Positions 1,438 through 41,959 of a stretch of DNA of 50,679 nt are shown here, piece by piece. The DNA comes from a virus. Within the stretch, counting starts at the first letter, position 1; each line of letters opens with the position of its first letter. Location: IMG/VR virus record IMGVR_UViG_3300033153_003782, positions 1 to 50,679 of that record; one strand, 5' to 3'. Under the pieces are notes generated by a model. The model was given only the letters and a program-made list of their open reading frames with translations. It searched no databases and was not told the DNA's origin. The translations under genes were made by a program, and so were the position numbers.

Positions 1438-2463
1438 ATGAATGAAAAAAACCTATACAAAGACATGCACCAATCGGAGCCGTGTAGCGCTTGCGGCGGA
1501 ACGCTACGCTACACGCTAGGCGGTGCTTGCCCTTCCTGTACGCTACAGCGCCTAGCTCCTACAGTGTCTAGAGATACCCCACGCTCTAGGAGATCCGCGG
1601 AAAAGCAGGGTTTAACATGGTTTCAGTCGTCACAGCCGATAATTTGTTTCCGTGGTCCACACTTATTTGTGAAGTCCTACAAGACGTCAAAATGTGTCTA
1701 TTGTGAAGGTGACCCGAACGACCCGGCACGGGCAGCGGCGGGCAGCGACAACAAACTCGTATATAGCCCCCATTTCCCTTGTGGTGATTGCGGTACACAT
1801 TCACGCGCGGTTAATTCGAATAAGTGCATCGAATGCCATGGCTTAAAAGTGCCTAAAAATAATATAATGAAAACAAATCCCAGCATGTTAATAGCTAGGA
1901 ATGAAGCTATATCCGAAGGCCACAGCGTCTACCGTACTGGCCGCCCATGTTCGAAAGGGCATTACGGCTGGCGTAACGTGACGGGGGCGTGTATCGATTG
2001 CACGGCCGGACGACCTGCCGACGCGGAACCATGGACGGGGAAAACATTACCTGACGGTAGATTATCAGACGCTAAGAATACTATAATGCACCAGCACCCC
2101 CACGCGGTTATTAGTCTTAAGTCTGCCGTGTCAGAAGGCCACAGCGTCTACCGTACTGGCCGCCCATGTTCGAAAGGGCATTACGGCTGGCGACGGGTCG
2201 CGGGTGGAAACTGCATCAGCTGCACCGCGGGGAAACCTGCCGACGCTGAACCATGGACAGGGGACACCGCACCGGACGAAAGGGTGTCAGCCACAACAAC
2301 CTTAATGCTAGATAACCCGGACTTAGTTCTTGAACGAATAGCAGCCCAGTCGTTGGGTGTTAAAGTGTATCGAACGGGCCGACCCTGCTCGAAAGGGCAT
2401 TACGGCTGGCGACGGGTCGCTGGGTCCTCCTGTATCCAATGCGCAAAGGATAGTAGACGATGA
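1438..2463 (+). CDS. Tandem zinc-ribbon repeat protein (341 aa)
   Basis: The protein carries six Cys-rich units. The first has CSACG and CPSC pairs; units two and three are degenerate (ending CVYC and CIEC). The last three are nearly identical and follow YRTGRPCSKGHYGWR, then six to eight residues, then CxxC. Between them is a repeated helix-like linker of the form NPxhxxxRxxAhxxGH, with a PADAEPWTG segment. C-x3-H and CxxC pairs suggest treble-clef zinc sites like the small zinc ribbons attached to phage HNH or other DNA-binding proteins. No catalytic domain is visible. GAGGA lies 10 bases before the ATG. The stop overlaps the next gene by ATGA. The role is unknown; a DNA-binding or regulatory protein is the best guess. 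Confidence 0.85.
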   Translation: MNEKNLYKDMHQSEPCSACGGTLRYTLGGACPSCTLQRLAPTVSRDTPRSRRSAEKQGLTWFQSSQPIICFRGPHLFVKSYKTSKCVYCEGDPNDPARAAAGSDNKLVYSPHFPCGDCGTHSRAVNSNKCIECHGLKVPKNNIMKTNPSMLIARNEAISEGHSVYRTGRPCSKGHYGWRNVTGACIDCTAGRPADAEPWTGKTLPDGRLSDAKNTIMHQHPHAVISLKSAVSEGHSVYRTGRPCSKGHYGWRRVAGGNCISCTAGKPADAEPWTGDTAPDERVSATTTLMLDNPDLVLERIAAQSLGVKVYRTGRPCSKGHYGWRRVAGSSCIQCAKDSRR

Positions 2464-3002
2464 AATACGCCGAATACTTAGCTTTAAAAGAAGGCCCTAA
2501 GATAAGTCTGAAGTTGGCACGGGATTTAGGCGAGACGCGGTACCGGACGGGCGCCGCGTGTTTAGAGAGGGGGCATTTAGGCTGGCGCCGCGTTAGAGAC
2601 GGCAAGTGTCTTGAATGCCTGGCCGGCTCGCCTCCACTGCCGCGCAGTGAGCACGAGTTCCAACTAATGCAGGACCGCACCGAGAAGCCCACGACAGCCA
2701 TGATGGAAAAGTACCCCGACATGGTCATCAGTCGGGACGACGCCACCGTTGTGGGTTTTATTGTGTACCGGACGGGTGAGCCATGCGGGCAGAATCACCG
2801 AGCATGGCGAAACGTACATAATAACGAATGTGTTAGCTGCCTCCGTTTGGATCCGCCGGGGCCCGACGAACGGGTAATAAGCAAGTCGGTAGCATTAGAC
2901 CGCCAGTTCCCTATGTATCGGACGGGCGAGCCATGCGAGAAGGGGCACACCGGCTGGCGCTACGTTGAAAACGATCAATGCGAAGAGTGTTCCCGAGCCT
3001 GA
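2460..3002 (+). CDS. Second tandem zinc-ribbon repeat protein (180 aa)
   Basis: This protein has three more units of the same repeat (YRTGAACLERGHLGWRR, YRTGEPCGQNHRAWRN, YRTGEPCEKGHTGWRY, each followed by CxxC), separated by the same linker type (KYPDMVISRDDATVVG). Its start overlaps the previous stop as ATGA, so the two are probably translationally coupled, and they look like one repeat array split into two genes. The gene ends at a hairpin facing the convergent minus-strand genes. The function is unknown; zinc binding is inferred from the Cys and His spacing. Confidence 0.85.
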   Translation: MKYAEYLALKEGPKISLKLARDLGETRYRTGAACLERGHLGWRRVRDGKCLECLAGSPPLPRSEHEFQLMQDRTEKPTTAMMEKYPDMVISRDDATVVGFIVYRTGEPCGQNHRAWRNVHNNECVSCLRLDPPGPDERVISKSVALDRQFPMYRTGEPCEKGHTGWRYVENDQCEECSRA

Positions 3003-10065: not shown

Positions 10066-10232
10066 GTTGCGAGGTCCTTCGCTCTAATGATCGGCGATTT
10101 TCTGTAAGTGTAGCCCCGGTCGAGTGTTGGCCATGTGGCAGAGATTGCGGCGCGGCTTGCCTTGCGCTTTGCTGTAGCTTTGTCGCTGGCGGCTATGTCG
10201 GCTTTTAGTTCGTTAAGTTCTTGCTGTGTCAT
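10059..10232 (-). CDS. Hypothetical early protein, 57 aa
   Basis: The frame starts MTQQELNELKADIAASDKAT with GGAG upstream, and ends by overlapping the next ATG. First gene after promoter P7. Lys/Arg/Ala-rich; the function is unknown. Confidence 0.7.
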   Translation of the reverse strand: MTQQELNELKADIAASDKATAKRKASRAAISATWPTLDRGYTYRKSPIIRAKDLATC

Positions 10233-10259
10233 GTCGTTGTCTCCGTTTAGTTATGCTCT

Positions 10260-10288
10260 ATAGTACTACGGCCGAGCCGTACCGTCAA
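10260..10288 (-). promoter_or_regulatory. Early promoter P7 with class I operator, overlapping a coding end
   Basis: The minus-strand -35 is TTGACG (10283-10288), the spacer 17 bp and the -10 TACTAT (10260-10265). The operator TACGGCTCGGCCGTA is at 10267-10281. The last codons of the upstream 96-aa gene (ending GLDGTARP) run through the -35 and operator, and its stop lies at 10266-10268. Confidence 0.85.
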
Positions 10289-10556
10289 GCCCTAAATTAT
10301 TCTCTTTCAATATTTTATTTGCGAACGCCTCGCCCGCTCCGTAATACCGGCATTTATTTGGGTTAACCGGGACGGCCATTATCGCCCGCGCCCGCTCCTT
10401 ACTGATCGCAGGCTCACGGCGTGCGACCCGTGGCGGCCGTAGCGCGTGCCGTCGGCTATCCCCTGCGGCCAGTCGCGACCGGTACGTCTCGCAGTTCACC
10501 TTACACGCGTCGAGCGCCACAATATCACAAATCCGCATGTCGTCCAGTGCCGGCAT
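10266..10556 (-). CDS. Hypothetical protein, 96 aa, ending inside promoter P7
   Basis: I start it at ATG 10556, which overlaps the previous stop as TAATG (the frame is open further upstream without support). It reads MPALDDMRICDIVALDACKV and is basic in the middle. Its last eight residues are encoded by the promoter and operator of the next operon. The function is unknown. Confidence 0.65.
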   Translation of the reverse strand: MPALDDMRICDIVALDACKVNCETYRSRLAAGDSRRHALRPPRVARREPAISKERARAIMAVPVNPNKCRYYGAGEAFANKILKENNLGLDGTARP

Positions 10557-11014
10557 TACTCGCAGCCCCAGTTGACTTTTAACTCTTCGCCGATCCAAGA
10601 GACGGCCGGGTCGGTGACTCGTAGCCCCCCGAGCCTGTGCATATCGGGGCAGTACTCACCGATACACGGCGTGCCGTTAAGAATAAACGGGTAAAACTCG
10701 CCTTTGTTGAATTTTCGCTCCGGTATCTCATCGGGGCGGGCGGGGCGAAGGATAGGCCAGGTATTAATAGGGCTTATTTCAGAGCCTTTTATCACATAGC
10801 TAGTGAAACCATCGGACTCTTCGAGGAAGTACCACTTACCCGGCTCGATCACTAGGCGAATAACGAGATTATGGTCTAAGGGCGGCACGTGTATATTTAG
10901 CCAATAACCAGAGCTATGCTGAAATTCATACTTATAATTATCAAAATCGTGCTCGGCTTTCTGCTCGTCCGGTAAGTTCTTCCATTGTGTAAAATGTGGG
11001 TTGGTTTGGTTCAT
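10556..11014 (-). CDS. Hypothetical protein, 152 aa
   Basis: The protein starts MNQTNPHFTQWKNLPDEQKA and contains many aromatic residues and beta-like segments (VIRLVIEPGKWYFLEE). An AGGGAAAA site precedes the ATG. It is downstream of the primase-helicase in the same operon. No family is recognised. Confidence 0.75.
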   Translation of the reverse strand: MNQTNPHFTQWKNLPDEQKAEHDFDNYKYEFQHSSGYWLNIHVPPLDHNLVIRLVIEPGKWYFLEESDGFTSYVIKGSEISPINTWPILRPARPDEIPERKFNKGEFYPFILNGTPCIGEYCPDMHRLGGLRVTDPAVSWIGEELKVNWGCE

Positions 11015-27365: not shown

Positions 27366-29627
27366 TTAAGATGTACATTCTATGTTTAACGTCGCCCCGT
27401 CGAAGGTTGGGCCCCCCACAGGATTGGTGGTTATAAATCCTGCTTGGTCGTCTAGTTCTTCGCCTACGGTTCCCGTCCAATTGGCTAGCCTTGGTGCATA
27501 AACACAATTGTCGGTTATGTCCGTGTCTATGTCGTCAAAGCATTCGGGGAGACCGGCCCGGTATAGGTTCGTCACGTCCGCCGGGGCTAGATATTCGTCG
27601 AACTTTTTAGGAAGTGTTATAGAGCCGTGGAAATAGTCCTCACTGCCCCCCACCGTCACTTGGTTAGCCCCCACTACGAAAAGGGAACCCTTCAAGGATA
27701 GGGTCGTTGTGGCTATGGTATTACCCCCTATGTCTACGCCGTCTAGGTACACCCGCTGGTTACCGGGCTCGACCGCGACCGTTATCATATGCCAATCGGT
27801 GTCGTTCACATTTCCGAAAGATCCGATACTTTGGTACGCTCCGACGGGAGTATTTCTGAATCCCGCGGATATGGAATTGTCCGCAAGAACTGCTAGATCT
27901 AACCTAGCGAAAGCCCCGCCCGAGGTTGTAGACTCAAAAAACAGGCCGTGATTGGCCCCTGTAGCGGACCTCTTCGCCCATATATTGAGCGACCATGTCG
28001 ACCCGTCTATCCCGCTAGCGTTAGCGGTGAAATACTGGCCGATGCCGTCTAAGTGCGTGGTATTAGCGGTGAATATGGTCGGTGGTATAATCGCCCCCGG
28101 CGCGTCGACACAAGCCACCTGTACGCGACCCGTGAAGGGTACGCTCCCGTTATTGGTGATCGTTAGGCCCCCGACATGCTCTACCAGTTCTTGCCCTTCG
28201 TGGTCTTGCCAGTTAGCCAGCTCCACAAATAACACCTCCCCGTCCTTCATGGTGTCTGTGCGGCCGTCATAGCAAGTGGCATTATTTTGCCGGTATAGTT
28301 CCTCTACGACGGGTGATTTATCGGTATTATATATACCCACAAAAGCCAATTCACCGCGTAGGTTTGAGCCAGGCATGTTAAACCCGCCACCGAGGGTACT
28401 ATCCGCGAAATACGCGCCGGTCATTATCTGCCCGAAAGTCTGGCTGGTATCTTCGTGGACTAGCACCGCGTCAACGTAAATTTGAAAGGTGTTCGTCCCG
28501 CTGTTTATTACCGCCAACACGTGGACGTCTTGGAAACTAGGGATTATGTACGTAGACGTCGTAGAAATGAAAGGCCCATTGTCTACCTCTCTGAATCCTA
28601 TACTAAGCTCCCCGGCTATGCCTAAGGTAAACTGTATGCGTGGCTGTCCGCTAGTCGTCTGTGTCTCTTGAAAAATTGCTCGTACCCCGCTACCCGTTCC
28701 GGTAATGCGTAGGAAAGCCTCGAAGGATATGATTTCCTCTGCACTAGTGACACCCCCCGGATACGTGAAAGTCTGATCCGTGCCGTCCAGTAACGCGCGG
28801 TTAGCCGTGAACGTGTACTCTATACGCATGCCTAGCCACAGTTGCAGTGGGCATATTTTCAAGCATAAATCTTCGAACTCGTCGCGACGTAATAAGGGTA
28901 CATACGCGAAGGTCGGGAAATCTTCCCCGCCAATATATAGGAAGTACGCCCACTTTGCCGGGTCCGAGGGTATTATGTATTCTTTACGCTGGAAAACTGT
29001 AGCGTCAAACATACCGCATTGTGCGTCAAGTTCCCCACATTGCGCGACGAGTTCCCCACATAAAGGAATGAATTTTTTATCTGTGTTGAATATTTTATTA
29101 ACAAGCGCATAACCTAGCGGGGCGTCGTATACCTCCCCTGCTTGCGCTGCTTGCTCCCCGCATAAGGCCAACGGTTCGCCACAGGCAGCTGAAAACCCTT
29201 GCGGTGCGTTCGGTTGCTCTAGGAATGAAAGCGGGTTCCGAGGCGTTGCGCACGCGTGAGTGTCCAGTGGTGGCTCGGTGCCTGGCACCCACCATTCATG
29301 TACAAACACCGGGAAGCCGGCAGCCTGCAAAGTGTCTTGAATGTATCGTGGGTCCTGTCCCCCGATTGCTTTCCAAGTAGCATCGAGACGGTCGCGCCGT
29401 TGCTGCGTTGTTAGGCCCGTATCGGGTAGGCCCCACTGATCGTCCCACGCGTCAAGTTCTCGCGTAGTAGAGGGAAAGATATCTAAATATACTTCGTTAA
29501 CGTAGTCTTCCACATCCTGCGGTAGCTCTGTAAGACCCTCGAAAAATTCTGTTAGCTGCTTGCCCGCTGCGAGGCGCCACGCCCGCGCCTTGGGTAAAAT
29601 ATGCTCAAATATCCTTAAGTACTTCAT
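27366..29627 (-). CDS. gp48-like tail protein fused to two LamG-like domains, 753 aa
   Basis: Residues 1-120 match the DUF2313/Mu gp48-type baseplate protein (LPKARAWRLAAGKQLTEFFE, then FPSTTRELDAWDDQWGLPD). A Cys-rich insert follows, with repeated CGE/AQCGE words at about 150-215. Residues about 270-450 and 530-720 each look like a concanavalin/LamG sandwich (for example GNQRVYLDGVDIGG, and NTFQIYVDAVLVHEDT). The normal gp48 is about 200 aa, so the extension is a displayed carbohydrate-binding module. The ATG overlaps the baseplate J stop. Confidence 0.8.
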   Translation of the reverse strand: MKYLRIFEHILPKARAWRLAAGKQLTEFFEGLTELPQDVEDYVNEVYLDIFPSTTRELDAWDDQWGLPDTGLTTQQRRDRLDATWKAIGGQDPRYIQDTLQAAGFPVFVHEWWVPGTEPPLDTHACATPRNPLSFLEQPNAPQGFSAACGEPLALCGEQAAQAGEVYDAPLGYALVNKIFNTDKKFIPLCGELVAQCGELDAQCGMFDATVFQRKEYIIPSDPAKWAYFLYIGGEDFPTFAYVPLLRRDEFEDLCLKICPLQLWLGMRIEYTFTANRALLDGTDQTFTYPGGVTSAEEIISFEAFLRITGTGSGVRAIFQETQTTSGQPRIQFTLGIAGELSIGFREVDNGPFISTTSTYIIPSFQDVHVLAVINSGTNTFQIYVDAVLVHEDTSQTFGQIMTGAYFADSTLGGGFNMPGSNLRGELAFVGIYNTDKSPVVEELYRQNNATCYDGRTDTMKDGEVLFVELANWQDHEGQELVEHVGGLTITNNGSVPFTGRVQVACVDAPGAIIPPTIFTANTTHLDGIGQYFTANASGIDGSTWSLNIWAKRSATGANHGLFFESTTSGGAFARLDLAVLADNSISAGFRNTPVGAYQSIGSFGNVNDTDWHMITVAVEPGNQRVYLDGVDIGGNTIATTTLSLKGSLFVVGANQVTVGGSEDYFHGSITLPKKFDEYLAPADVTNLYRAGLPECFDDIDTDITDNCVYAPRLANWTGTVGEELDDQAGFITTNPVGGPTFDGATLNIECTS

Positions 29628-37631: not shown

Positions 37632-39128
37632 TTAAGCTATGAACGGCGCAACGCCGAAGTTAAAACCAAAATTATTATCGATTGAGATAATATTTGTATT
37701 GCCGGAAAGCTTCCAAGTAACAGCGAGGTCTAGGCGTTTTGGGTTAGACCCATTAATGCCTGCAACTATACTGTCCTTTACAAACTTGGGGTCTGCTATT
37801 AAAGCCTCATTTCCGAGCTTATCGACAAGTGACGCCACTTCAGCGACGGCCATAGACGGCTTTTTCGCGTCTGGGTTGGTTGTCGGCTGGTTGTCTGGAA
37901 TTAATGGCGCGCCGTCCCATTCCACGCTGTTAAAAATCAAATCTAAGTTAAAGATTATATTTTGCAGCTTTACAATGTCCACGACATAACGGTAGGCCGG
38001 TACTGGCTCGCCCGTTGGATGATAAAAAGTGACCGTGTCGGCTAGGTTGACCACGCTGTCCTTCACAACAATAGAACTTGAGCCCTTCTTTATTGCTTCG
38101 TCACGTTCCGCGTAGTCCCACTGGTCCTCGTCTGAGCCTGGGGTAAGGCCTGAGGCGTCACGGCTGCCGTAATCACTAGCGGGTTTACTATTAGCCACAA
38201 TAACAACGCGCGAAAGCTCGCGAGCGGCTACAACTAGGGGCAAGTCAAAGCTACCCGGTGATACTAGCTGACAATTTGTACGATCCGTCGGTCTAGCGTC
38301 TGACACGGTTGTGGCTGTGCCGACGTCGGCTATAGTGTTTCCTGTAAATACTACTAGTGGCTTTTTAGTTAAAGCCCCCCAGCGACCTTCGCCGAAAGTA
38401 GAATACTTTGACAGGGTAGCCGTGTCCGCGATGTCAAGGCAATTTAATACCATAGTCTCCCAAATATCGCCGATCTTGTTGATAGCGTCGTCAACGTCTG
38501 GGTTAACCAGTCCGCCGGCGGCTTGAGTGATAGCAAAAACATTGCCTGCAGTCGTGGAGCCTTCGACGGCCACGAGAATATCGTTCGCGCTTACGCCTTC
38601 CCATTTCGAGGTGAAAGTAAGTTCCGTGACACCATCAACAGCAATAATAGGCATGGCTAAAACTGCGTTTATGGCGGTAGTCATTGCCGTAACGACCTGC
38701 GCCACAGTGGCCGCGGCGTCGATGACGAAGGGCTCGGATAAAATATTATTAACATTAACCCGGTACGACTCCGCTCTAGTAGCCGACCCAGACGGGGTGA
38801 TATCCCCTGCAGAAGCTACGCCGCTGGCGTCGTCCTCCATCGGGTAGACAGTAACCGGAATAGACCCGACGCCGTCGCCATTGATTGGGAACATTTGGAG
38901 CGCTGTTAAGTGAATAGGCGAGCCAAAACCGTAAGTTATGCCGGCTTCGTTCGCGCTTGTAATTTGGTTTTTGTCGAGGCTGTAACTAGCCGCCGTCGAG
39001 CCTTGACCGATAAGCGCGACGCGCTGCGGTAGTAAGAAAAGTGAACTCGTGTTCAAATTCTTAAATATTGTTTCTATGCCGACTACTCGCGCTACTGCGG
39101 AAGCGGCGACAGCGTTGGAAATTGCCAT
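37632..39128 (-). CDS. Contractile tail sheath, Mu gpL-like, 498 aa
   Basis: I start it at ATG 39128 with AAAGGAGTAAG upstream rather than the upstream in-frame codon. It reads MAISNAVAASAVARVVGIET, LLPQRVALIGQGSTAASYSL, and ends in the conserved sheath C-terminal domain (RLDLAVTWKLSGNTNIISID). It shows that the phage is a myovirus. Confidence 0.93.
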   Translation of the reverse strand: MAISNAVAASAVARVVGIETIFKNLNTSSLFLLPQRVALIGQGSTAASYSLDKNQITSANEAGITYGFGSPIHLTALQMFPINGDGVGSIPVTVYPMEDDASGVASAGDITPSGSATRAESYRVNVNNILSEPFVIDAAATVAQVVTAMTTAINAVLAMPIIAVDGVTELTFTSKWEGVSANDILVAVEGSTTAGNVFAITQAAGGLVNPDVDDAINKIGDIWETMVLNCLDIADTATLSKYSTFGEGRWGALTKKPLVVFTGNTIADVGTATTVSDARPTDRTNCQLVSPGSFDLPLVVAARELSRVVIVANSKPASDYGSRDASGLTPGSDEDQWDYAERDEAIKKGSSSIVVKDSVVNLADTVTFYHPTGEPVPAYRYVVDIVKLQNIIFNLDLIFNSVEWDGAPLIPDNQPTTNPDAKKPSMAVAEVASLVDKLGNEALIADPKFVKDSIVAGINGSNPKRLDLAVTWKLSGNTNIISIDNNFGFNFGVAPFIA

Positions 39129-39204
39129 GTTACTTACTCCTTTGTTTTTTCTTCCGTGTAGCAAAGCTACGAGGTTGTTTATTGTACACGTTCAAACGTG
39201 TTTT

Positions 39205-39516
39205 TTAAAGTTCTAAAGCTTCTAATCTTTTGGCGAGGTCCCAGTCTAAATTGAGGGAGTTTAGCCCCGCCATTACGTCCGGGGGAAGTACCGCGCCGTG
39301 TTCCATAGCTGTAATAGCATGGCGCGGGCTACATTCAAGCCCCAATTCAAGGCCCCTGTCTATAAGTTCCTGCGCCGTGTCAAAGACTTCCACCATGTGC
39401 CGGCTTGTTACTTTATTTGTCGTAAAATCCCCCGCCATAAACTGCCCCCCGCAATGGATGAGGACGTACTTATTGTCTAGTACTAAATCTGTTTCTGTGC
39501 TGTGGTCGCATATCAT
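39205..39516 (-). CDS. Hypothetical tail-region protein, 103 aa
   Basis: I start it at ATG 39516, overlapping the previous stop as ATGA; earlier in-frame starts lie inside the 691-aa gene. It reads MICDHSTETDLVLDNKYVLI and has three to four short beta-like strands then a helix (DTAQELIDRGLELGLECSPR). No family is recognised. Confidence 0.7.
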   Translation of the reverse strand: MICDHSTETDLVLDNKYVLIHCGGQFMAGDFTTNKVTSRHMVEVFDTAQELIDRGLELGLECSPRHAITAMEHGAVLPPDVMAGLNSLNLDWDLAKRLEALEL

Positions 39517-41588
39517 ACCGCTATGTCCCCAATAATATTCCATAATGGCGGCGCGCTGGTTAGTGTGTTTCTGTCCGCGCTCGGCGATGTGTAGATCATA
39601 TTTAAGGCTCCTAAAGTAACACCAACTTTGACCGTTTGGCCCGCGCACATAGCCAGGTAATTATCGTAATTCGTCTGCGACAGCCCGCTATCGTCGAGCA
39701 TGTTCGACATGTCCGCGACGTTGCCCACGTTCCAGCCTGTAAGGTTTTGGTTAAACGATGTCGCGCCCTTGAGCATCCAAGACATATTGGTAACGTTGGA
39801 CATGTTCCAGCCGCTAAGGTCTTGATTGAATGCCGAAGCGCCGGAGAGAATAAAGCTGGCATCTACTAACGAGTTAGTAACCCACATACTAATGTCTTGG
39901 TTGAACGTCTGGCTACCCAGCATAGCGTGCATGGTAACCATGCTGGAAACATCCCATAAATTTAATGGCTGGTTGTATGCGTTGGCACCGGCGAAAACGT
40001 GGTTGGCGGTCACGACGTTGCCGACGTCCCATGAATTTACATTCTGATTAAATATCGTGCAGCTTCTAAGCATGCCGCCTATATTTGTGGCGCTGCTCAT
40101 GTCCCAGACGCCTATAGGACGATTGAATACTGAGTTTCCGAAAAACATTTGATTAAAGTTTGTAACGTTCCCGACGTTCCAGCCCTCTAGGCCTATCCCG
40201 GTAAACGCCGTGCACCCAAAGAACATATTTACAACGCTAGTGACTGCGGACATATCCCACTGCGACACGTCCCCTGCCATTAGAACACAATTTAAGAAAG
40301 TACTATCTAAATTAGTCCCTGTAATAGTGGGGGTGTTATTGGCCGGTACGCTCCATACCATATTAGCGCAGCCACGCCATACGCTATTAAGGGGTATTCT
40401 AAAATCCGGGCCTAAACTGATCTTTTCGATTAGCTTGCTTTTATCGCCGAGGTTGTCGTATCTCCAGTCGTCTATTGTTCCGGAAATTCGAACCGTTTCG
40501 ACTCCACCCGGTCCGTAATCGTGGGTGTTAGAGTTGTTTACATTTCCGTCGCCCCAGTTCACAAGATTTCCGGCGTTCGGCGTAAATGGTAGGACTAATT
40601 GACCTGAAGGGCTGCCCGCTAGAGTAGTGTCGAAAATTGCCTCGAAATTAGGTTGTATAAAAATATTATTGCTGCTCTCTTCGGGGTCGCTTAGACCCGT
40701 AGGGTTACTGGCCGTTACTTCAGATTTAATCTCGGCTCCTGCGTCAGCTTCCACTGTAGTGTATGACTTACCAGTGGCGCCGGCTATCGGAACACCATCT
40801 CTAAGCCACTGGTAAAAATACGATGTGGGCTCATCGCTCCAAGTTCCGTTAGCGGTTTCGAGCTTTGAATCTTCAGCGCCTACACCACTAACCACGGGCG
40901 CCACGGTATTGACTGGCGCGGACGGGTCGTAATCGTATTCGGCTTCGAGGAAAATTTCACCATCTTCCCGTCTGAAAACTGTAATGTGTACTATCTCTAA
41001 TGGTTCGCCTATGTACTGCGGCGAGGATTCCACAAAATCGACAGCGAAGGCTATACGCCCCGCGATTACCTGCTCGACGCTGTTCGTCTCCTGGTCGGGC
41101 TGTAAAGTCTCAATAGATTGCGGCCAGCGAAGGGTAACAACGCCGCGCAACTGTAAAAAAGTGTTTATCGATGCCATTAAGATATTTCTAACGAGTCGTA
41201 GCGCGCGGTGCGCTTCGAGCGCTGCGTCTTTGTCTCCGGGTTGGTGTCCGTTGGCCGTGTCGGAACTCACGCCCCGGGCGTAGCAATCGATATTAAAAAT
41301 GCCGTTTGCTTTCTGCTCGTCCACGACGCCACGCGCCGAAGACTTGTCAAAATTGCTTGTGCTATACCAAACATTTATAACCGGGCGATGATCGTCGCCG
41401 GATAGGTTTTCCCAAGGGTTGGACCGTTCGGTAAAGATACGCAAATCCCACAAAGCGGGGTCTTTATTCGCCGCAGTGGCTAAGGCCATTTGATTTACTA
41501 CTTCGGTCTTAAGTATGCCCGCTATTTGGTCCCGGATAATTTCAAAATTATCTTGCTTGTCGATAAGTTGCTGCAAAACATCAGTCAT
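39513..41588 (-). CDS. Tail terminator fused to Ig-like and BspA leucine-rich repeats, 691 aa
   Basis: Residues 1-220 look like a tail terminator/completion protein (DKDAALEAHRALRLVRNILM, then IAGRIAFAVDFVE), right for a gene before the sheath. Residues about 224-313 are an Ig-like domain (YFYQWLRDGVPIAGATGKSY, EVTASNPTGLSDP). After a linker with NLVNWGDGN, residues about 425-640 are repeated BspA/DUF285 units (SQWDMSAVTSVVNMFFGCTA, GWNMSNVTNMSWMLKGATSF), about nine copies. Ordinary terminators are about 200 aa. The extension would be displayed at the head-tail junction and may bind cell surfaces. Confidence 0.82.
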   Translation of the reverse strand: MTDVLQQLIDKQDNFEIIRDQIAGILKTEVVNQMALATAANKDPALWDLRIFTERSNPWENLSGDDHRPVINVWYSTSNFDKSSARGVVDEQKANGIFNIDCYARGVSSDTANGHQPGDKDAALEAHRALRLVRNILMASINTFLQLRGVVTLRWPQSIETLQPDQETNSVEQVIAGRIAFAVDFVESSPQYIGEPLEIVHITVFRREDGEIFLEAEYDYDPSAPVNTVAPVVSGVGAEDSKLETANGTWSDEPTSYFYQWLRDGVPIAGATGKSYTTVEADAGAEIKSEVTASNPTGLSDPEESSNNIFIQPNFEAIFDTTLAGSPSGQLVLPFTPNAGNLVNWGDGNVNNSNTHDYGPGGVETVRISGTIDDWRYDNLGDKSKLIEKISLGPDFRIPLNSVWRGCANMVWSVPANNTPTITGTNLDSTFLNCVLMAGDVSQWDMSAVTSVVNMFFGCTAFTGIGLEGWNVGNVTNFNQMFFGNSVFNRPIGVWDMSSATNIGGMLRSCTIFNQNVNSWDVGNVVTANHVFAGANAYNQPLNLWDVSSMVTMHAMLGSQTFNQDISMWVTNSLVDASFILSGASAFNQDLSGWNMSNVTNMSWMLKGATSFNQNLTGWNVGNVADMSNMLDDSGLSQTNYDNYLAMCAGQTVKVGVTLGALNMIYTSPSADRNTLTSAPPLWNIIGDIAV

Positions 41589-41959
41589 ACCGTGTAAGCT
41601 TCCAACATTAAGGATATGACGCCGAGGCCTCTATCCGGGTTAGTTACTGAGACTTTAAAAGTGTATGGGTTCCCGTTAATATCGTCAAATTTCACAAGCC
41701 ACGGCTTGCTGCTGCTGTTCGCGATACCTTCCGGCGTTCCTATCTTAAGCGATGAACTACGAAGCGCCACAGACGCGGCCCGCCCCATTACCAGCTGCCC
41801 GGTATCGGGGTCGATGATCTGGGAAATGTCGACGCTCCACCCGACCATGTCCTGAGACACTCCGTCAGGATTAGTAAGTCGTATTTCCCAGCCACCGCCG
41901 CGGACGTTATCCTCCAGGATGGAAGATAGGTCCTTTTCTGCTGCGCTTCGCAAGTTCAT
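41585..41959 (-). CDS. Head-tail joining-region protein, 124 aa
   Basis: The protein (MNLRSAAEKDLSSILEDNVR, then ITNPDG-type and ANSSSKPWLVKFDDINGNPY) resembles a small conserved protein placed between capsid and sheath genes in related phages, probably a connector or neck protein. Start and stop overlap both neighbours (TAATG, ATGA). Confidence 0.72.
   Translation of the reverse strand: MNLRSAAEKDLSSILEDNVRGGGWEIRLTNPDGVSQDMVGWSVDISQIIDPDTGQLVMGRAASVALRSSSLKIGTPEGIANSSSKPWLVKFDDINGNPYTFKVSVTNPDRGLGVISLMLEAYTV

Follow-up and report, generated by a model that had tools for sequence, protein, structure and literature searches.

A phage tail terminator protein extended by Ig-like, PKD-like and BspA repeat domains: a candidate adhesin at the neck

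Results

Gene order around the fusion gene

The window, that is the whole stretch of DNA analysed here, is a 50,679-base IMG/VR virus contig, and it carries on the minus strand an uninterrupted open reading frame (39513-41588) that begins with ATG and encodes a protein of 691 residues. The gene order is head closure protein Hc1, fusion gene, an ORF of 112 residues, tail sheath and tail tube, followed by more tail genes. The Hc1 gene (41585..41959, minus strand; phrog_4598, 8.7e-29) and the fusion gene overlap by stop and start codon, and the presence of the sheath gene (37632..39164, minus strand; phrog_165, 7e-85) and of further tail genes downstream of the fusion gene indicates a contractile-tailed phage.

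The fusion protein starts with a tail terminator domain (residues 1-222, 40923..41588), which is followed by a proline-rich linker (DPSAPVNTVAP) with an Ig-like domain (residues 223-311, 40656..40922), a PKD-like domain (residues ~312-392, 40413..40655), a solenoid of BspA/DUF285 (PARCEL) repeats (residues ~393-642, 39663..40412) and a cap that closes the BspA module at the C-terminus (residues 643-691, 39516..39662), with the stop codon directly after the cap (39513-39515), all on the minus strand. An earlier, sequence-only reading of this DNA had recognised the terminator, Ig-like and BspA parts and had missed the PKD-like domain.

The 112-residue ORF at the terminator/sheath junction (39205..39543, minus strand) starts within the final 31 nt of the fusion gene. 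It has no match in Pfam or PHROG, and no relative of it was found in the collected terminator loci. The ORF is likely to have come along with the graft, and its product is possibly a partner or chaperone of the extension.

A programmed frameshift controlling the extension is ruled out, as the extension lies in frame 0; the only two in-frame slippery heptamers are T_TTT_TTA at codon ~143 in the terminator core and A_AAT_TTA at codon ~542 in the repeats, neither of them at the junction. An internal start that would yield the BspA part alone was also rejected, the sole Shine-Dalgarno-like site with a start being at codon 664, which is too late.

The N-terminal domain

Residues 4-218 match phrog_4671, a family of unknown function, at 5.1e-55. 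The AlphaFold2 terminator model built from 40 family members has a mean pLDDT of 84 and matches in fold p142 of phage T5 (Z 14.4, 143 residues aligned, 3.0 Å) and gpU of phage lambda (Z 13.5, 130 aligned, 2.5 Å), with further matches to the phage Chi neck (12.9), the R2 pyocin collar (12.2) and Mu (11.8). Residues 1-222 thus have the gpU-like alpha/beta fold of the gpU/gp15/p142 superfamily, and the gene lies, as a terminator gene should, between the head-closure gene and the tube and sheath genes. The earlier proposal that the first 220 residues are a terminator is borne out by the family match, the fold and the Hc1 and sheath neighbours; it would have failed had this part adopted another fold, and since the top matches in both fold comparisons are mostly terminators or neck-collar rings, this is not the case. 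The annotation 'tail terminator protein' is already in use for one family member, in Aeromonas phage AeroV_348. Another one, at 10221-10916 of OL658619 (L216), carries the label 'rubisco long chain, form III-C', which seems to be a misannotation.

The extension

The Ig-like domain, which had been proposed to follow the terminator and does so, matches phrog_26223 (7.7e-12), phrog_36166 (2.6e-10) and the Hoc-like phrog_2973 (6.7e-4); a match of this region to the ZirU family was below the cut-off. Similar Ig domains, roughly 32-47% identical, occur in 215 phage records, and some of these are annotated 'whisker' or 'capsid decoration' (Stenotrophomonas phages). As in phage Ig decorations in general, the domain sits on a virion protein, to judge from the terminator domain that carries it. 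For the PKD-like domain a direct Pfam match is absent in the fusion protein, and its assignment comes from an NWGDG motif and from the alignment to stand-alone phage PKD-DUF285 proteins, to which tblastn matches run from residue ~315 to residue ~688 with E values down to 7e-52.

The repeats score 9.9e-54 with DUF285 (PF03382; 180.6 bits vs a cut-off of 25) and 1.5e-13 with TIGR02167, also above its cut-off, and they are composed of eight Trp-led 25-residue units, with starts at residues 444, 470, 495, 520, 545, 569, 594 and 619, which are preceded by an irregular N-terminal BspA unit; the BspA/DUF285 array of "about nine" units, as first read, was thus a fair estimate. Because a like cap ends phage PKD-BspA proteins, the module looks complete, and in its score, its 25-residue Trp-led repeats and its cap it conforms to BspA/DUF285 repeat proteins. 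In the full-length AlphaFold2 model (pTM 0.47) the terminator core has a pLDDT of about 82-97 and the solenoid one of 84-98 from residue ~441, with low confidence at residues 223-434, where the Ig and PKD domains are below 50. Since this part is not confidently modelled, the Ig-like and PKD-like assignments rest on sequence.

Bacterial BspA/DUF285 members are typically secreted or lipoprotein surface proteins. The fusion protein lacks this trait, in that a signal peptide is absent and the N-terminus is that of a phage terminator, and it would get to the surface as a part of the virion and not by secretion. BspA repeats are common in phages generally: the Ig-PKD-BspA query matches 291 phage records, although some of these matches involve the Ig domain alone.

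The terminator family and the terminator/sheath junction

Relatives of the terminator were collected from annotated phages, genome contigs and viral contigs, and since the best 80 loci were taken in each of three viral-contig scans, the sample leans to closer relatives. Of the 122 distinct terminators among the matches listed, 119 end 0-3 residues beyond the domain, typically with ..ADYDYTAP*, two run off a contig, and only one, the fusion described here, is extended. A protein end at or near the domain end is thus usual for phrog_4671, as a trait of the family and not a requirement of the fold, and here about 470 further residues follow. The graft site of the extension is the old stop codon of the family. 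No like fusion was found in other viruses among the 122 distinct terminators listed, and an extension is absent in the six annotated phages checked and in SppYZU01, as well as in the three relatives from genome contigs. The fusion of a terminator with Ig-PKD-BspA is accordingly seen in one virus only. Two terminators in fragmentary contigs (L035, L048) are interrupted by frame breaks with early stops, probably through sequence errors or decay, and do not count as extensions here. The family is present in phages of Shewanella, Vibrio, Acinetobacter and Aeromonas, which are culturable.

The sheath gene starts at most 60 nt after the terminator stop in 112 of the 119 listed loci with the sheath in view. 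Apart from the fusion locus, the seven exceptions comprise three loci with HNH-endonuclease-like genes at the junction (L021, L253 and L052, the latter being Shewanella phage SppYZU01, KY622015), one with a LamG lectin-like gene (L135:2297-3999; phrog_5939, tail), one with an LVIVD beta-propeller gene (L019:1200-3683) and one encoding an 894-residue protein (L113:6688-9369), the C-terminal region of which is 44% identical to that of the L019 protein. The terminator/sheath junction is thus a hotspot for insertions, with adhesin-like genes among its cargo, and in the virus studied here such cargo is joined to the terminator in frame.

A head-completion protein with PKD and BspA domains in siphophages

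The search with the extension also found proteins in which the first ~100 residues are a head-completion protein (Phage_HCP, PF05521, 4e-9 to 8e-8; Hc1, phrog_25) and which continue with PKD and then DUF285. They belong to an uncultured siphophage group (loci L096-L103, L160-L169 and L284-L296; e.g. L169:6001-7308). In L169 an HK97-type portal, a protease, a capsid gene and a connector-like ORF lie upstream of the fusion, and gp10-like, tail completion, major tail and tape-measure-like genes lie downstream, all of them named by eye from the translations. This head-completion protein is present in 18 loci, and the PKD-BspA part is kept in all 16 intact ones. Where a pairwise dN/dS (Nei-Gojobori) could be computed for the BspA part, it lies at 0.08-0.36, and the BspA part is under purifying selection. 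Two members, L295 and L296, have a much more diverged BspA part, with 77% identity kept in the HCP domain and 41% in BspA, as if the outer part had been replaced or were evolving faster, as expected of a binding surface.

Since this siphophage group is unrelated to the phage studied here, neck proteins have acquired BspA modules on at least two occasions. The sequence-only reading had called a BspA array on a neck protein uncommon and had proposed a search for the same fusion in other phages; this holds for terminators (1 of 122), for which the search gave no second case, but the arrangement is not unique to the present virus, as PKD-BspA on the head-completion protein of the second group demonstrates.

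Discussion

Neck appendages of phages are already known, and what is new in the present protein is the carrier, a terminator, and the module. The neck passage structure (NPS) of lactococcal 936 and P335 phages is likewise an optional neck module ending in ligand-binding domains (here putative), and a neck-derived carbohydrate-binding module of 936 phages showed binding (PMC6669499). The NPS differs, however, in being encoded by a separate gene and in having a BppU-like N-domain and a trimeric coiled coil, whereas here the N-domain is the terminator, the module is Ig-PKD-BspA, and the AlphaFold2 model has no long helix in residues 223-637, where its confidence is low. The collar spike gp40 of the Vibrio myophage XM1 resembles our case in that a contractile phage has receptor-like proteins at the terminator gp5 and the head-completion protein gp4, but gp40 is a separate trimeric spike docked on the neck and is not fused to the terminator (PMC10457771). 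The Ig-like extensions of the tail tube proteins of lambda, T5 and SPP1 are also accessory domains at the C-terminus of a ring-forming tail protein; they lack BspA repeats, and terminators are not among the five classes of Ig-bearing phage structural proteins (tail fibre, baseplate, tail tube, capsid, Hoc) in a review (PMC9022992). The siphophage fusion (L096, L169 etc.) shares with ours the PKD, DUF285 and cap at the C-terminus of a neck protein, and differs in its PF05521 carrier, its HK97-type siphophage background, the lack of an Ig domain and its fixation in the group. The BspA/DUF285 (PARCEL) proteins found in jumbo phages and others, such as Vibrio phage pir03 (PMC7765460), have the same repeat family, often with PKD, but they are known as separate genes, unlike the array fused here to a terminator. 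No report of BspA repeats on a terminator or head-completion protein was found in the open-access literature searched, and the phage DUF285/BspA papers found do not, in their accessible parts, describe a neck fusion.

Placed between the tail tube and sheath on one side and the head on the other, the terminator domain would make up the usual hexameric ring. The extension begins directly behind the last beta-strand of the domain, at the edge where the terminator of a contractile phage meets the sheath, so that the neck would bear six protruding arms. In XM1 the C-terminus of the terminator exits the ring and contributes a strand to the C-terminal domain of the sheath protein, and spikes dock on its terminator and head-completion protein (PMC10457771); additions at a terminator C-terminus should thus sit at the periphery, and an outward exit of the C-terminus from the ring is by this analogy plausible for the present phage. 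As the 50.7-kb record holds one terminator ORF and no second, short one, every subunit of the ring should carry an arm unless the product is processed. The Ig and PKD domains would act as spacers and the BspA solenoid as the contact surface, and the arms would help the virion to stay on the host cell or on nearby material before the baseplate commits.

From the position of the extension, the selection acting on the analogous siphophage fusion and the adhesin-like cargo at the junction in relatives, we infer a hexamer that displays its arms outwards for adhesion, and we consider it rather probable that they are an auxiliary adhesin for the host or another surface, much as the sequence-only reading had suggested. 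BspA repeats also occur in proteins without a demonstrated adhesive role, which is a point against this. Caution is also advised by p142 of T5, where a C-terminal tag disturbed assembly and led to aberrant polymerisation (PMC11784142).

Among the other explanations, an assembly chimera or a sequencing error that joined a separate BspA gene to the terminator, a concern to which the metagenomic origin of the virus contig lends some ground, is very improbable indeed. The gene is one continuous ORF with even GC (48-51%), its repeats are too diverged at the DNA level for collapse in assembly, and a search for DNA-level tandem repeats or PARCEL-like palindromes gave weak ones only, so that there is little to misjoin. 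Precise joins would moreover be needed at both ends inside the gene order of one phage family, and the flanking genes are equally related to the same loci (median identity to the family over 148 loci: Hc1 53%, terminator 53%, sheath 62%). The occurrence in a single virus, at a hotspot that also takes HNH genes, could be taken to mean that the extension is a passenger, i.e. a recent in-frame fusion of little or no function that is tolerated by the ring. To this we assign a slight probability, given that 470 codons are without a stop, that the module is complete with its cap, that the protein consensus is preserved across the repeats although 87 of the 134 identical residue pairs between them differ in codon, and that the analogous siphophage fusion is under purifying selection.

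An extension that packs on the head vertex or the top sheath ring and stiffens the neck as a structural collar, with no ligand, would agree with the site at the head-tail joint and with the collar spikes of XM1, which reinforce head-tail attachment (PMC10457771). We regard it as unlikely, because relatives manage without the extension, BspA, PKD and Ig are typical exposed modules, and BspA is the most diverged part between subgroups in the siphophage fusion. A minor but real chance is given to arms with a putative affinity for non-host surfaces such as mucus, biofilm matrix, particles or eukaryotic glycans, which would keep virions near their hosts, a role that has been proposed for the Ig-like domains of Hoc. 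In line with this, the Ig-like domain is of the Hoc/whisker type, adherence to mucus has been published for phage proteins of the Ig-like or Hoc kind (PMC11853027, PMC6867891), and host binding could be the task of the LamG domains that a baseplate protein of this phage carries.

Returning to the auxiliary adhesin, its wider meaning would lie in the presence of a module of ligand-binding type on a core ring protein of long-tailed phages, and unrelated phages carry such a module on another protein of the neck. Should the arms bind, the neck would be a second site of adhesion, bearing on how phages hold cells or matrices, and the C-terminus of the terminator would be a natural place for display, testable in culturable relatives. 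More tentatively, and with somewhat less than even expectation, the neck may be a general and under-recognised mounting site for swappable adhesins, the same BspA module being grafted by unrelated phages onto different ring proteins, a terminator in the myophage and a head-completion protein in the siphophage. In that case these phages would have, at the head end of the tail and in addition to the baseplate, another station for binding hosts or surfaces.

Some other genes of the record encode proteins with grafted or repeated domains. The Gp48-like baseplate protein (27366-29627, minus strand) has two LamG (concanavalin-like) domains, which makes it the second graft of adhesin-like kind in this virion. 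A 172-residue protein (19541-20059, plus strand) is composed of about seven near-identical units of ~22 residues (EAVKRNGDSLRYVKEQTEA), and two adjacent proteins at 1438-3002 (plus strand) contain repeated YRTG.PC..GH.GWR.V....C..C units with the look of zinc-binding repeats, both read by eye.
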